Source: Halobellus salinus
GTDB lineage: Archaea > Halobacteriota > Halobacteria > Halobacteriales > Haloferacaceae
Length of the DNA: 64,000 nucleotides
NCBI RefSeq assembly: GCF_014646875.1
Contig: NZ_BMOC01000002.1
Location: forward strand, 124,001 to 188,000
Direction of reading: 5' to 3'
Shown: positions 13,205 to 63,128 of the stretch, in pieces
How the letters are laid out: every line of letters starts with the position of its first letter
How positions within the stretch are numbered: the first letter of the stretch is position 1
The notes under the pieces: model-generated
The model's input: only the letters and a program-made list of their open reading frames with translations
Databases searched by the model: none
Told to the model about the DNA's origin: nothing
Translations under genes and position numbers: made by a program

Positions 13205-13266
13205 GCGCAGTGTTGATATTCGGCGCCATCGTCCTCGGGTTCCTGCTCCCGCTTCTGGTGGGGTGA
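13205..13266 (+). other. possible C-terminal fragment of a membrane protein
   Basis: Between the MITE-bearing hairpin and the omega-RNA-like end, one frame reads a hydrophobic segment (VLIFGAIVLGFLLPLLVG) and a stop at 13264-13266. It looks like the last transmembrane helix of a protein whose upstream part was lost. It could be chance. No family is assigned. Confidence 0.3.
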
Positions 13267-13389
13267 ACAACCTCTCCCTACTTCGCTCGGGGGCTACTGA
13301 CCCGCTCGCTCGTTGAGGGTTCCGTCAGACGAGCTCTGACGGCGTGCAGGCGTATGGCCTGCACTAGCGCTTTCGCGTGGATTCCCGTT
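13263..13389 (-). ncRNA. omega-RNA-like right end of the tnpB element
   Basis: Downstream of the decayed tnpB on the minus strand lie the stem GTCAGAGCTCGTCTGAC, then CCCTCAACGAGCGAG, GAGCGAAGTAGGG and finally GTTCAC at 13263-13268. The same order of blocks recurs at 59634-59720 and, more degraded, at 46944 and 49799. In IS200/IS605 elements the omega-RNA overlaps the transposon right end, and the flanking DNA supplies the guide. Transcription is not shown. Confidence 0.55.
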
Positions 13390-14469
13390 CTATGCCTCAA
13401 CAGAGGCAGGAGGGTTGTACTCCCCACTCACGTTCAGCGTCCCGCGATTCAAGCGCACGTCCGCGGGTGCACGTCCACGGGTGCGCCTCCATCGTCTGCG
13501 TGTTGCCGACGTTAACGAGACGCTTCGCGTCTCGTCTGCACACCGGAAATCTTCGATTTCTGGGGACAACGGAGATACTGCAAGCCGGTGTTCTTCGAGG
13601 CATTGTAGTCGGTGTGGTTTTCGTACCCACACTTCTGGCACTCGAACGACTCCTGGTCGCGGTTCTCGTCGTGGGTAAACCCGCACGTCGAATATCGCTT
13701 CGATGTGTTGGGCGGGTCCACCTGAAGCACCTCCAGGCCGTATTCGTCTGTTTTCACTCGATGTACTGGAACAGACGTCTGAACGCCCAGCGGTGTTGCC
13801 ACGTTGCCTCGGGAATGTTCTCCCTGATGCGGGTTAGGTCCTCGAACACGATGTGCGAACAGCCGTTCTCGATGGCCTCCTGGATGAGACCGTTCGCAAT
13901 CGTGTGCAGGTGGATGCTGAAGCGTCCACCCGCCTTCCGACCAACACGCTGGATGTTCTCGTGGGCTGCTCGCGGTCCGCGCTGGCCGAGCGAACCACGC
14001 CGTTGCTCGTACTCTCGATTCCAGTGGTTGAACTCGTCCGCACTCCAGAACGTGCCCGTCGAGGCAACAGCGATACTGTTGACACCCAGATCGACACCGA
14101 GGACTGTTCTGTGCTCGGTATCGGATTCGGCGTCTTCCTCGACTTTCCGCATCGATGCGTGGAGATACCACTCCCCACCGCGGCACTGGAGGTTGCCTCA
14201 CCTTTGATGGCCTCGACACCCCGCCGAATGGCTTTCTGGACGAGGTTCGCAGTGAGCCCGGTCTCGTCGCGAAGACGGTCGTAGAGTGCGCGTTCGGCTT
14301 TGGCTTTCGAGGTGACGTGGTAGCCATCGTCGCCGTACCAGCACCACTCGCTTACGGTGTTGGCGCAGTGTTTGAACTGCTCGACAGTCTCACGAAGGAG
14401 CGAATCGGCTCCATCGGGTGTGTCGGGTTTGATAAAGAGTTTTGCCCACGGGGCCGAGAGTCCGACCAA
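13390..14469 (-). pseudogene. tnpB: tnpB (IS200/IS605-type RNA-guided nuclease), frameshifted and internally deleted
   Basis: The N-terminal part ([36 protein letters not shown]) is in one frame to about 14200. It jumps with an internal deletion to [14 protein letters not shown], followed by RuvC motif [16 protein letters not shown] and motif [14 protein letters not shown] to 13754. A one-base shift leads to [21 protein letters not shown] with the zinc-finger region and DYNASKN (motif III). Another shift leads to DVRLNRGTLNVSGEYNPP ending at 13390. The first zinc-finger cysteine is lost (KRYSTCG). It cannot make an intact nuclease. The extreme N-terminus and left end are missing where it meets the reductase gene start. 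Confidence 0.9.
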
Positions 14470-48929: not shown

Positions 48930-49805
48930 ATGGACGCTGGCGAAGGCGGGGCGGCTGCGGTCTTCCGGGGACTCTTCGAGCTCACGCGCCCCGGGAACGT
49001 GGCTGCCGCCGGGGCATTGACATTCACCGGGTCGTTCGTCGCCAGCGGGTTCGGCGCAGCCGTCGCCCCTGTCGTCGCAGCCGTGGCCGCAACCGGCTTC
49101 GCGACCGCTGCGGGCAACGCGGTCAACGACTACTTCGACCGCGCCGTCGACCGTGTGAACCGCCCCGAGCGTCCGATCCCCCGCGGCGCGGTCACCGCAC
49201 GAACCGCGCTGGTGTTCAGCGGACTGCTGTTCCTGGGGGCGGTCGTCGCTGCGGTGGCGCTCCCGCTCGCGGCCGTCGCGATCGCGGTGGCCAACCTGCT
49301 GGCGCTGCTCGCGTACACGAAACTGTTCAAGGGGCTGCCCGGTGTCGGAAACGTCGTTGTCGCGTACCTCACGGGGTCGACGTTCCTGTTCGGCGCGGCC
49401 GCAGTCGGACGCGTGGCGGATCCGGCGGCGGTCGTGTTGTTCGCGCTCGCGGCGCTCGCGACGCTCTCCCGGGAGGTCGTGAAAGATGTCGAAGACACCG
49501 AGGGCGACCGGGCTGAGGGGTTGCGGACGCTCCCGATCGTTGCGGGTGAGCGGACCGCACTGCGGGTCGGCGCTGCGGTGTTGGTGGCCGCCGTGGCGGC
49601 GAGCGCCATCCCCTACGCGATGGGAACGTTCGGCCCGGCGTACGTTGCGGTCGTCCTGCCGGCGGATCTGGTGATGCTCGACGCGATCCGGCTGTCGTTC
49701 ACCGACCCGGGGGTCGCACAGCGCCGGCTCAAACGCGGAATGTTTCTGGCGGCGGTCGCGTTCATCGTCGGTCGGGCTGTCGGGGCAGTTGGGGGGGCCG
49801 TGTAA
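48930..49805 (+). CDS. ubiA: UbiA-family prenyltransferase (DGGGP synthase type)
   Basis: 291 residues with about eight hydrophobic segments. The two Asp-rich motifs are NAVNDYFDRAVDRVNRPERPIPRG near 68 and DVEDTEGDRAEGLRTLPI near 183. This pattern fits geranylgeranylglyceryl phosphate geranylgeranyltransferase, the second ether-bond step of archaeal lipids, though menaquinone-type UbiA members look similar. The stop codon falls within a transposon-remnant end (GTGTAAC at 49799-49805), so the last residues may have been altered by that insertion. Confidence 0.85.
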   Translation: MDAGEGGAAAVFRGLFELTRPGNVAAAGALTFTGSFVASGFGAAVAPVVAAVAATGFATAAGNAVNDYFDRAVDRVNRPERPIPRGAVTARTALVFSGLLFLGAVVAAVALPLAAVAIAVANLLALLAYTKLFKGLPGVGNVVVAYLTGSTFLFGAAAVGRVADPAAVVLFALAALATLSREVVKDVEDTEGDRAEGLRTLPIVAGERTALRVGAAVLVAAVAASAIPYAMGTFGPAYVAVVLPADLVMLDAIRLSFTDPGVAQRRLKRGMFLAAVAFIVGRAVGAVGGAV

Positions 49806-50131
49806 CCGATTCCACCCCACTTCGCTCGGTCTGATAATCTCGCGCTTGAGGGAGGGGCTTTGATTCGGTCCTCGCCGTCAAGTGGCGCGACGGGGCGTTT
49901 CGTGCGCTCCGCCTCCCGAACGCACTTCGGGGTCGACGGACCCACCAGTTGGGGCCGGGCTACTGCGGCCCGTACTCCACAGCGCTTGTGGCCGCACAGC
50001 GTTACGCGGTAGCACGGACTGGGCTGTGAAAACGCCTGCGTCCAGCTTCGTAACGCGCTCCGCGCCTCCCTACGCCCTGGCTTCGCTCGGGCGTTGAGGA
50101 AGGGGGCTCCGCGCTACCGATTAGCTGACAC
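49799..50131 (-). mobile_element. degenerate IS200/IS605-type remnant with omega-RNA-like end
   Basis: On the minus strand the order is CCTCAACGCCCGAGCGAAG (50060-50100), a GC-rich stretch with stems, then CCCTCAAGCGCGAG, CCGAGCGAAGTGGGG and GGTTACAC at the end (49799). The last blocks parallel the right ends at 13263 and 59634. No tnpB reading remains. It lies between ubiA and the RecA-fold gene and supplies the ubiA stop. No other gene is seen in this 470-bp gap. Confidence 0.5.
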
Positions 50132-59018: not shown

Positions 59019-59447
59019 CTACTTCAGCCGTTCTTGGAGGAACGACGGGTGGGCGGCGGTGATCCCCTCGACCGACAGGAGAGTCTCGGAGATCACGTCG
59101 CCGAGCGCGTCGCCGTCGGCCGCGCGGACCTCGGCCATGAGCATGTGGTCGCCGGAGGAGGTGTACAGCGACTCGACCGCGGCGAGGGCTTTGAGCTCGC
59201 GTGTCGCCTCCACGTACCGCTCGGAGGCGACGTCGAGGCCGACCAACGCGATCGACGTTTCCGAGAGTTTCTTCGGGTCGACGTCGGCGGAGTACCCCAC
59301 GATGAGCCCCTCTTCTTCCATCTTCCGGATATACTTCCGTACCGTCGGTTTCGACACGTCGGCCCGGTCTGCGATCTCGGCGTACGATGCCTGGGCGTCC
59401 TCCTCCAAGATACCGAGGATCCGCCCCTCCGTCGATGTGACTTCCAT
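59019..59447 (-). CDS. Lrp/AsnC-family regulator
   Basis: A 142-residue protein with an N-terminal HTH (EGRILGILEEDAQASYAEIADRADVSKPTVRKYIRKMEEEGLIVGYSADVDP) and a RAM ligand-binding domain (IALVGLDVASERYVEATREL, VESLYTSSGDHMLMAEVRAADG). The HTH-RAM order and size match haloarchaeal Lrp proteins that respond to amino acids. Targets are not apparent. The ATG at 59447 precedes an AT-rich stretch (TCGTGTGGCGGAAAAAATACC) on the plus strand that may hold its promoter. Confidence 0.92.
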   Translation of the reverse strand: MEVTSTEGRILGILEEDAQASYAEIADRADVSKPTVRKYIRKMEEEGLIVGYSADVDPKKLSETSIALVGLDVASERYVEATRELKALAAVESLYTSSGDHMLMAEVRAADGDALGDVISETLLSVEGITAAHPSFLQERLK

Positions 59448-59633
59448 ACCCTAACTTTCGTGTGGCGGAAAAAATACCTTCCGAACCTGAAAACTGCGAT
59501 CCCGACTGCCCTGTCGGGGAGCACACCTCACACGCATATTCGTTTTGGCGTCTACAACCCCGTCTGGAGCGGCAAGAGTCACTCGCGACGCTCGCCGGCG
59601 ACTCCACCCGACCCGGAGGGGCTTCCGGGGCCC

Positions 59634-59880
59634 GTGAACCGACCTACCCCACTTCGCTCACCCCATACTGGGTTCGCTCGTTGAGGGTATCGTCAGAAGC
59701 GAAGCTTCTGACTGCTACCCAGAAATCGTGATTTCTGGTGATGGGGCTTTGGTGTAAACTCCCAGCAGTCAATCGCCAGCAATCGGCTGGTGATTCTCGC
59801 CGGTCAACGTCACCAGAACGCGACGTGTTCTGGTCGGCTCACAAGAGCGGAGCTCTCGTGAACGTCTCACCAGCTATAGT
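59634..59880 (-). ncRNA. orphan omega-RNA-like element with stacked hairpins
   Basis: On the minus strand, four consecutive hairpins are readable: the CACGAG...CTTGTG stem, CCAGAACACG-CG-TTCTGG, CAGAAATCACGATTTCTG and GTCAGAAGCTTCGCTTCTGAC. They are followed by CCCTCAACGAGCGA, GAGCGAAGTGGGG and GGTTCAC ending at 59634. The last blocks match those downstream of the tnpB pseudogene at 13263. No tnpB or TnpA reading is present between the Lrp gene and ileS. Structural preservation of the stems suggests that it may still form an RNA. The adjacent flank (GGGCCCCGGAAGCCC on the minus strand) would be the guide. Transcription is not shown. Confidence 0.55.
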
Positions 59881-59939
59881 CTGCCTGCCAATTACCGAGC
59901 GCGCGCTCGTGTGCTCCAAACCCGACGGTCCGACGCCGG

Positions 59940-62900
59940 TCACTCGATGACGGGATCGACGCCGATCGTCACCGCGACGCCTTCGACGTCCCACTCCTCG
60001 ACGAGTTCCCACTCGCCGTCCGCTGGCTTCTCGCCCGTGAACTCGCGGCTTCGGGTCTCGCTCGCGACGTACTCGCGGTGGCGGTCCACGAGTCCGGCCA
60101 CCCGGTCGTCAGCGACGTCAACGGCGGTGTCGATCTCGCTTTCGACATCGAGATCCAGGCGCTTCCGCATCTCTTGTATTCGCCGGACCACATCCCGGGC
60201 GTACCCCTCGGCCTCAATGTCCTCTGTGAGTTGGGTGTCGACGTAGACCGTGCCGCCGTCAAACTCCGACGCGGAGACGTGCGCGGGCGGTTCGGCCTCG
60301 TAGCGCACCATCTCGTCGGTCAACTCGTGGATCTCGCCGTCGACGTCGACGCCGCCGTCGCCGTCGCCGTCGAGTTCCGCGCGGGTCTTCCCCGTGACGG
60401 CGTCCATAACGCGTTGGGCGTCGGCGCCGAACTCGGGGCCGATCACGCTCATCTCCGGGACCGCGCGCTCGATCAGTTCGTCGAACTCGGAGACGACTTC
60501 GATGGATCGGGCGTTGACGCGGTCGGCGAGCAACTCCGCCAGCGACTCGACGCCGTCGGCGACGGTGCCGTCGTCGCTTGCGACCACGACCCGCTGAACC
60601 GGCCACCGGAGCTTCCGGCCGCCCTGCTGGCGGGCGTTCGCCGCGGCCTCTTCGACGTCTCTGAGGACACCCATCCGGCGTTCGAGGTCCGCGTCGCGGC
60701 GGCCGCTGTCAGGTTCGGGGTACGACAGCGCGTGAACGCTTGTCGCGTCCCCGTCGAGTATCTGGTACATCCGCTCGGTGAGATACGGAGTAAAGGGCGC
60801 CAGCAGCCTGATCGACTCGTCAAGGACGGTCGAAAGCGTGGCGTAGGCCGCGCGTTTGGCGTCGGAGTCGGCTTCCTCCCACATCCGCTCGCGGATCGCC
60901 TTGATGTAGAACCGCGAAACGTCCTCGGTGAGGAACGAAAGCACCGCGTTGAGACCATCGGAGATCCGGAACTCCTCGAGGGCGTCGTGTGCTTCGGCCT
61001 CGACCGACTGGAGTCGGGAGAGCACCCACTCGTCGACCACAGTGCGTTCGCCGTCGTCAAGAGAGGCGTCGGCGGGGTCGTAGCCGTCGAGGTCCATATA
61101 CGGCAGCGGGAACCGGAAGACGTTCCAGAATATGTTGAGCGTCGACTCCATGTCCGCGAGCCCATCCCACTCGAAGGAGAGATCGACGCCCTGCTGGTCG
61201 TGACTGAGGAGGTACGCCCGCAGGGGGTCGCGGCCGGCGCGCTCGATCGCCTCCTCGGGAGTGACGATGTTGCCGAGGGACTTCGACATCTTCCGGCCGT
61301 CCTCGTCGTTGACGAACCCGTGCATCATGACCTGTTCGTACGGTGTCTGCCCCGTGGCGGCGGTCGACATCCCCAACTGTGACCAGAACCACCCGCGGGT
61401 CTGGTCGTGGGCTTCGACGATGAAGTCCGCGGGCCAGAGGTCGTCGTAGGCGTCGGTCTCGGAGGGGTAATCGAGCGTGCCCCACGACGCCACCGAGGAG
61501 TCAATCCACACGTCGAAGACGTCCGGGACCCGCTCGTAGGTCTTCCCGTCTTCGGTGATGGTCAGCGGGTCGACGGAGGGGCGGTGAAGGTCGATCCCGT
61601 CGGGGTTGACCGCCTGGTCGGCGCGCTCGGCGAGTTCCTCACGCGTTCCGATCACGATCCACTCGCCGTCGTCGGCCTGCCAGATCGGCAGCGGGATCCC
61701 CCAGTAGCGCTGCCGGGAGATGTTCCAGTCGGGAGCGTCGGCGACGAAGTCCCTGAACCGATTATCGCGGGCCCACTGCGGGTACCACTCCGAGTCGTCG
61801 ATGTTGTCCAACAGGTCGTCTTTGATGTCGGTGACTGTAATGAACCACTGGTCGGTCGCCAGGAAGATGATGTCGGTGTCGCACCGCCAGCAGTGGCCGT
61901 AGCGGTGCTCGTGGGTCCCCGACGCGAGCAGCGCGTCTGCCGCCCGGAGATCAGCAATGATGTCGTCGTTGGCGTCGCGCACGAAGGTCCCCGCGTAGTC
62001 GCCGGCGGCGTCGGTGAACTCCCCGCGGCCGTCGACGGGCACGAAGACGTCGAGCCCGAGTTCCTGGCCGCGGGCGAAGTCCTCCTGGCCGTGGCCGGGC
62101 GCGGAGTGGACCAGTCCAGTCCGGTCGGCCTCGACGTAGTCGGCGGTGTAAACCTCGCCTGCGCCCTCGAAGTCGCCGTGTTCGGTCACCCGATCCGCGA
62201 GCGGGTGGTCGTACGCCCACCCGACGAGGTCTGCGCCCGCGTACTCGTCGACGACCTCGTAGTCCGCGTAGCGTCCCTGCTTCAGCACGTCCTCGACGCA
62301 GGGTTCGGCGATGTAGAGGAGTTCGCTCTCTCGCGGCTCCCCGCCGCTCGAACTGTCCGAGGCGCTCCCCGCCTCGCTGTCGCCATCCTTCTCCGCACGG
62401 ACAGCCTGATACGTCATCTCGCCGTCGACCGCGACGAAGGTGTTCGCGGGGATGGTCCACGGCGTGGTGGTCCAGATCACCAGGCTGCCTTCGCGACCCG
62501 ACAGCGGGAACTTCACGTAGATCGACGGCGACGTGATCTCGTCGTACTCCACCTCGTTTGCGGCGATGGCGGTCTGACACCGCGGGCAGTAATTAACCGA
62601 GCGTTTGCCCTGTTCGACCAGCCCTCGGTCGTCGACCCGCTGGAACGTCCACCACGCGGCCTCCATGTATTCGGGCGTGATGGTCTCGTAGGGGTTCTCG
62701 AAATCCATCCAGGCGCCGATTGACCGGAAGTCCGCGTCCATCGCCTCCCGGTTGCGCACCGCGAACTGCTTGCACTCGTCGATGAACGCCTCGATGCCGT
62801 ACGCCTCGATGTCGCGTTTGGTCTCGAAGCCGAGTTCCTCCTCGACTTTCACCTCGATCGGGAGGCCGTGCATGTCGTAGCCGGGCCGGTCGGTCACCCG

Positions 62901-63128
62901 GTGGCCGGTCATGCGCTTGTACCGGATGATGGCGTCTTTCAGCGTCTTGTTCCACGCCGTCCCCAGGTGCATCTGCCCGGAGGTATAGGGCGGCCCGTCG
63001 ACGAAAAAGAAGGCCGGGTCGTCGGCGTGGGCCGCCTTCGTCGCCTCGTAGGCGTCTGCGTTGTCCCAGTACGCCTCGACCGAGGGTTCGACCTCACTGG
63101 GCGCGTACTGGTCGTCGACTTCGTCCAT
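59940..63128 (-). CDS. ileS: isoleucyl-tRNA synthetase
   Basis: 1062 residues. The class I signature is FVDGPPYTSGQMHLGTAWNK near 45-62 (HIGH equivalent MHLG). A CP1 editing domain spans about 200-400. The KMSKS loop is DGRKMSKSLGNIV near 612. The zinc-site-like CWRCDTD segment lies near 414. A C-terminal anticodon-binding region follows LLAPFTPYLTERMY. A Ser/Asp/Gly-rich insertion occurs at about 245-262. It charges tRNA(Ile). A TATA-like TTCATATACG lies about 30 bp upstream of the ATG at 63128, and MITE copy B sits just beyond. Confidence 0.97.
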   Translation of the reverse strand: MDEVDDQYAPSEVEPSVEAYWDNADAYEATKAAHADDPAFFFVDGPPYTSGQMHLGTAWNKTLKDAIIRYKRMTGHRVTDRPGYDMHGLPIEVKVEEELGFETKRDIEAYGIEAFIDECKQFAVRNREAMDADFRSIGAWMDFENPYETITPEYMEAAWWTFQRVDDRGLVEQGKRSVNYCPRCQTAIAANEVEYDEITSPSIYVKFPLSGREGSLVIWTTTPWTIPANTFVAVDGEMTYQAVRAEKDGDSEAGSASDSSSGGEPRESELLYIAEPCVEDVLKQGRYADYEVVDEYAGADLVGWAYDHPLADRVTEHGDFEGAGEVYTADYVEADRTGLVHSAPGHGQEDFARGQELGLDVFVPVDGRGEFTDAAGDYAGTFVRDANDDIIADLRAADALLASGTHEHRYGHCWRCDTDIIFLATDQWFITVTDIKDDLLDNIDDSEWYPQWARDNRFRDFVADAPDWNISRQRYWGIPLPIWQADDGEWIVIGTREELAERADQAVNPDGIDLHRPSVDPLTITEDGKTYERVPDVFDVWIDSSVASWGTLDYPSETDAYDDLWPADFIVEAHDQTRGWFWSQLGMSTAATGQTPYEQVMMHGFVNDEDGRKMSKSLGNIVTPEEAIERAGRDPLRAYLLSHDQQGVDLSFEWDGLADMESTLNIFWNVFRFPLPYMDLDGYDPADASLDDGERTVVDEWVLSRLQSVEAEAHDALEEFRISDGLNAVLSFLTEDVSRFYIKAIRERMWEEADSDAKRAAYATLSTVLDESIRLLAPFTPYLTERMYQILDGDATSVHALSYPEPDSGRRDADLERRMGVLRDVEEAAANARQQGGRKLRWPVQRVVVASDDGTVADGVESLAELLADRVNARSIEVVSEFDELIERAVPEMSVIGPEFGADAQRVMDAVTGKTRAELDGDGDGGVDVDGEIHELTDEMVRYEAEPPAHVSASEFDGGTVYVDTQLTEDIEAEGYARDVVRRIQEMRKRLDLDVESEIDTAVDVADDRVAGLVDRHREYVASETRSREFTGEKPADGEWELVEEWDVEGVAVTIGVDPVIE

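Follow-up and report, generated by a model that had tools for sequence, protein, structure and literature searches.

A probable one-ended, decaying relic of an IS1341-type tnpB element in Halobellus salinus

We analyzed a 64,000-nucleotide stretch of the Halobellus salinus genome (hereafter the window) and conclude that positions 59634 to 59880 on the minus strand are very probably a 5'-truncated, decaying, one-ended relic of an IS1341-type (IS200/IS605) transposon. The tail model and remnant codons described below support the preliminary description's identification of this region as the right end, with its omega-RNA region, of a tnpB element that appears to have lost its gene. Relics of this kind are already known, the nearest being the terminal remnants and PATEs of Haloquadratum. 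The features of the region, in the direction of the minus strand, are as follows.

59940 to 63128, minus strand: ileS, upstream of the relic on the same strand (open reading frame with IleS orthologues).
59839 to 59880, minus strand: tnpB 3' coding remnant continuing into insert 2, TIAGETFTRAPLL and stop; relatives have VRITGGTFTRAELS and stop.
59808 to 59862, minus strand: insert 2, a 55-nt twin hairpin, found at the same tnpB site in L130, L136, and L140.
59769 to 59810, minus strand: C-terminal remnant of the original tnpB, TLTGENHQPIAGD and stop, matching the end of TnpB P0001 (...TVNGESHQPIAGD and stop).
59771 to 59795, minus strand: hairpin AATCACCAGC..GCTGGCGATT spanning the old tnpB stop codon and, by comparison with relatives, holding the sole private double compensatory change.
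59743 to 59747, minus strand: 5' strand of the closing helix P1, GCCCC, pairing with 59641 to 59645; C-G to U-A covariation in relatives.
59692 to 59738, minus strand: insert 1, a twin hairpin of inverted repeats, CCAGAAATC/GATTTCTGG plus GTCAGAAGC/GCTTCTGAC (59 right ends compared).
59641 to 59645, minus strand: 3' strand of P1, AGGTC versus GGGGT in most relatives, with two of five pairs broken (helix comparison).
59634 to 59688, minus strand: right-end tail, a hairpin with a tandem GA/GA loop and then GGTTCAC at the boundary (model R1); homologous tails lie beside TnpB genes.
59610 to 59633, minus strand: flank in the guide position, with no second genomic site except short partial matches.
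59019 to 59447, minus strand: Lrp-type regulator gene (lrp), named from its sequence.

R1, a covariance model trained on the right-end tails of 28 relatives but not on the 59634 copy, matched 59634 to 59688 at 52.8 bits (E = 2.5e-14 genome-wide). The preliminary description had likened this right end to the one downstream of a dead tnpB at 13263, and indeed the two motifs that it quoted occur in order at 59647 to 59687 and 13276 to 13319 and nowhere else in the window (0 of 100 shuffles); the 13263 tail was among the R1 training rows, so its own score is not independent. The dead element (13263 to 14460) shares tail motifs with the relic but encodes a TnpB of another subfamily (51% identical to P0001 over the best segment) and has other hairpins; it is not the parent of the relic. 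Most relatives of the relic within the genus and family consist of tnpB 3' ends together with their right ends, and a plasmid collection gave partial matches only, many of them under TnpB genes. Membership among IS1341-type right ends and omega RNAs is indicated by homology to tnpB right ends, by overlap with a tnpB 3' end, and by helices that covary in the family, although P1 is partly broken in this copy. The minus-strand RNA of 59634 to 59880 is also predicted to fold better than 200 of 200 shuffled sequences (z = -4.4). In the nearest full elements, TnpB is ~417 amino acids long; these elements start with TTCAGCATAATTC... and end with GTTTAC.

The region is not a complete transposon, as no intact tnpB is present at 59634 to 59880 and C-terminal codons alone are left; ~400 upstream codons are gone. 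The initial reading that no tnpB frame exists here is thus right as to the gene but not as to its last codons, which persist in two frames (59839 to 59880 and 59769 to 59810). When the 55-nt insert lies within tnpB, as in L130, L136, and L140, it yields the end ...GGTFTRAELS and stop, the counterpart of TIAGETFTRAPLL at 59839 to 59880, and because of this match, the ancestor most likely belonged to the insert-bearing group. The hairpins, originally counted as four, are not all of a kind: two belong to insert 2, one spans the stop codon, two belong to insert 1, and one to the tail.

The inserts have distributions of their own. The 55-nt twin-hairpin repeat (TTCACGAGAGC..GCTCTCGTGAGCCAACCAGAACGC..GCGTTCTGGTGACG) occurs at 59808 to 59862 and at L003 to L008, L028, L039, L045, L130, L136, and L140, scattered over intergenic regions and the insides of transposase and tnpB genes. 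It resembles in-frame palindromic elements, and at L045 it appears, by eye, to keep a transposase reading frame open. The other twin hairpin (59692 to 59738; also L022, L145, L146, and L150) occupies one site in the right ends of several TnpB subfamilies, with other right ends lacking it; a different hairpin pair is found at that site in L035, L113, and L148. Several tnpB-linked right ends (L002, L026, and L027) are among those without insert 1.

Four helices were compared across 28 right ends having the first twin hairpin. The family as a whole covaries: one pair of helix H4 occurs as G-C, C-G, and A-U, a P1 pair is C-G in 36 of 56 right ends and U-A in 9 of 56, and both sides of the tail hairpin change. 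In the 59634 copy, 26 of the 28 pairs in the four helices hold, but P1 has lost two of its five pairs; 44 of 56 right ends have this helix fully paired. Private changes within these helices comprise one to G-U, one to G-C, and one break, with no two-sided compensation. Outside them lies a single private two-sided change, AGTC/GACT to AATC/GATT, seen in the 59634 copy alone (1 of 30). The tail hairpin has also lost one loop-closing pair, and one A-C mismatch is visible by eye in the insert. The compensated stems of the preliminary description are borne out at the level of the family; compensation in the 59634 copy is mostly inherited, and one private double change stands beside four broken pairs, two of them in P1.

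Whether such pairing reflects use can be judged from other copies. Pairs were retained at 98% in right ends with intact tnpB, 98% in those with fragments, and 98% in those without tnpB, although these groups are blurred by "fragment" and "none" copies that end at contig ends. Because pairing is the same regardless of the state of tnpB, retained pairing does not show retained function, and with P1 damaged as well, we do not uphold the earlier proposal that the stems survive since the RNA is still used. Recent loss of tnpB explains the retained pairing, and perfect palindromes may be renewed by hairpin-templated repair. The P1 damage speaks for a truncated, decaying relic, and the 26 surviving pairs and the double compensatory change speak against it; most likely, the folds at 59634 were inherited and are starting to break, and the stretch is now without function.

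Two left-end queries detected no left end of the element in 59401 to 60400, the best matches being 13 to 20 nt with E values of 0.03 or worse. The 5' cut of the relic falls ~60 nt past the ileS stop codon. After that stop codon, 18 nt are common to the window and its nearest relative (G008) before the sequences diverge, and lrp adjoins another gene in other genomes; on these two grounds, we regard the ileS-lrp gap as a rearrangement or deletion junction. The two genes are neighbors here, across 59448 to 59939, but they are not adjacent in the other members of the genus that were compared (one genome per species), so a search for the empty site by synteny failed. Terminator and promoter scans of the region, which are ill suited to archaeal promoters, returned nothing.

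Copies without an intact gene are common in this genome. The tail model has 20 matches in 3.07 Mb, an approximate count that takes in weak matches (below ~25 bits), the weakest of them uncertain, and four copies that lie close to or at contig edges, and one of the 20 (C1:266778) has an intact TnpB. A right end without intact tnpB is the usual state in this genome, and the term "orphan" first applied to the relic is accurate in that an intact TnpB is lacking but does not mark it as exceptional. The intact TnpB (C1:266863) belongs to the same subfamily as the relic and has Cas12f1-like TNB and OrfB_IS605 domains; its cognate right end has neither insert. Other tails lie beside pseudogenes or fragments (13263, C12:102000, C3:245065, and C11:78400, the last with ~30 tnpB codons), and at C20:34652, a left end and a right end are fused. 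We also observed a left end fused straight to a right end at C3:158205 (L249), which leaves nothing but the termini, as in a 52-bp element described in Haloquadratum. A PATE-like sequence with left- and right-end-like parts and no tnpB lies in the window at 49802 to 50115 (minus strand), with a relative at C5:48623. Genome G140 has at least four copies of a 383-nt element without tnpB (L143, L158, L159, and L160), with 95 to 98% identity to L143 over the parts compared.

The presence of one intact same-subfamily TnpB raises the question of whether the relic acts in trans. Because it lies downstream of ileS on the same strand, readthrough could transcribe it, and a processed transcript with mostly retained stems might guide the TnpB at C1:266863. 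We consider a functional RNA of this sort improbable given that P1 is damaged, that the cognate right end is without both inserts, and that pairs are kept independently of tnpB. The flank likewise offers no second target: the preliminary description had suggested looking for TAM-adjacent matches to 59633 to 59610, and a genome search found short partial matches only and no second site beside a putative TAM (TTCAG, from left-end alignments alone), including a 14-nt match at C13 with no TTCAG before it. This absence is weak evidence, as the natural target of the guide is the empty site. In a broader version, several tnpB-less loci, the relic with its readthrough transcript among them, would supply guides in trans to the only intact TnpB of the subfamily in this genome; this seems very unlikely, and use of the relic in trans, judged from the sequence, is possible but unsupported.

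The possibility that a Y1 transposase acting in trans mobilizes the whole relic, in the manner of a PATE or MITE, is similarly remote. The genome has three Y1 transposase genes, and two-ended tnpB-less elements do exist, as in G140 and at 49802 to 50115, but the relic has no left end and departs from the definition of a PATE (both ends, no coding capacity); moreover, the whole stretch has no second copy in 170 family genomes, the best matches being partial and 81 to 84% identical. Least probable of all is adoption of the hairpins by the host as an ileS 3' UTR or lrp leader, which would suit their position between these genes on the same strand, but the neighboring gene order is not common to the genus and no terminator-like site was found.

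For the truncated relic, we infer the following order of events. An element of the haloarchaeal tnpB subfamily whose 3' coding end carries the 55-nt twin hairpin would once have occupied this site. A deletion or rearrangement would then have removed the left end and all of tnpB except the last codons, leaving the region of the omega-RNA scaffold and the right boundary. In the intact state, the tnpB mRNA would have been processed to an RNA comprising the hairpins and the right flank as guide, with which TnpB would have cut targets beside a TAM, as established for the TnpB of ISDra2 and presumed for the family of the relic.

Comparable remnants were described in Haloquadratum walsbyi by Dyall-Smith et al. 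(2011), who reported PATEs, core-deleted terminal-only elements, and C-terminal coding remnants (PMC3119063). In one PATE, HqIRS71, the C-terminal coding sequence is disrupted, and small mobile repeats insert into such elements (PMC3119063). Like these, the relic is a tnpB-less IS1341-type leftover with near-terminal palindromes; the Haloquadratum PATEs, however, are two-ended, whereas the relic has no left end, and its inserts are twin hairpins of ~50 to 55 nt rather than the ~110-nt SMR-A. In ISDra2, the omega RNA (reRNA) derives from the right end and the 3' end of tnpB, and the flank serves as its guide (PMC10097598; PMC8612924). The relic has the same layout, compared as layout and not as sequence, in that it spans a right end and a tnpB 3' end and has a flank in the guide position, but it has no TnpB gene in cis and is known here from sequence alone. 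RNAs of this type are expressed in Halobacterium (PMC12558985). The relic occupies the same position in IS1341-type elements as these haloarchaeal sotRNAs (Rfam RF02656 and RF02657; PMC12558985), yet neither it nor its relatives L255, L136, and L127 matched either model. A scan of the window against Rfam gave nothing at gathering score and, for the relic, a chance-level snoRNA match only.

By itself, the relic matters little, being one more transposon leftover. The comparison does caution that preserved hairpins in orphan right ends should not be read as function. If one intact TnpB did use many tnpB-less right ends, this would be a natural multi-guide system, and such a guide pool could be sought in this genome, where ~20 tail matches stand against a single intact gene of the subfamily.
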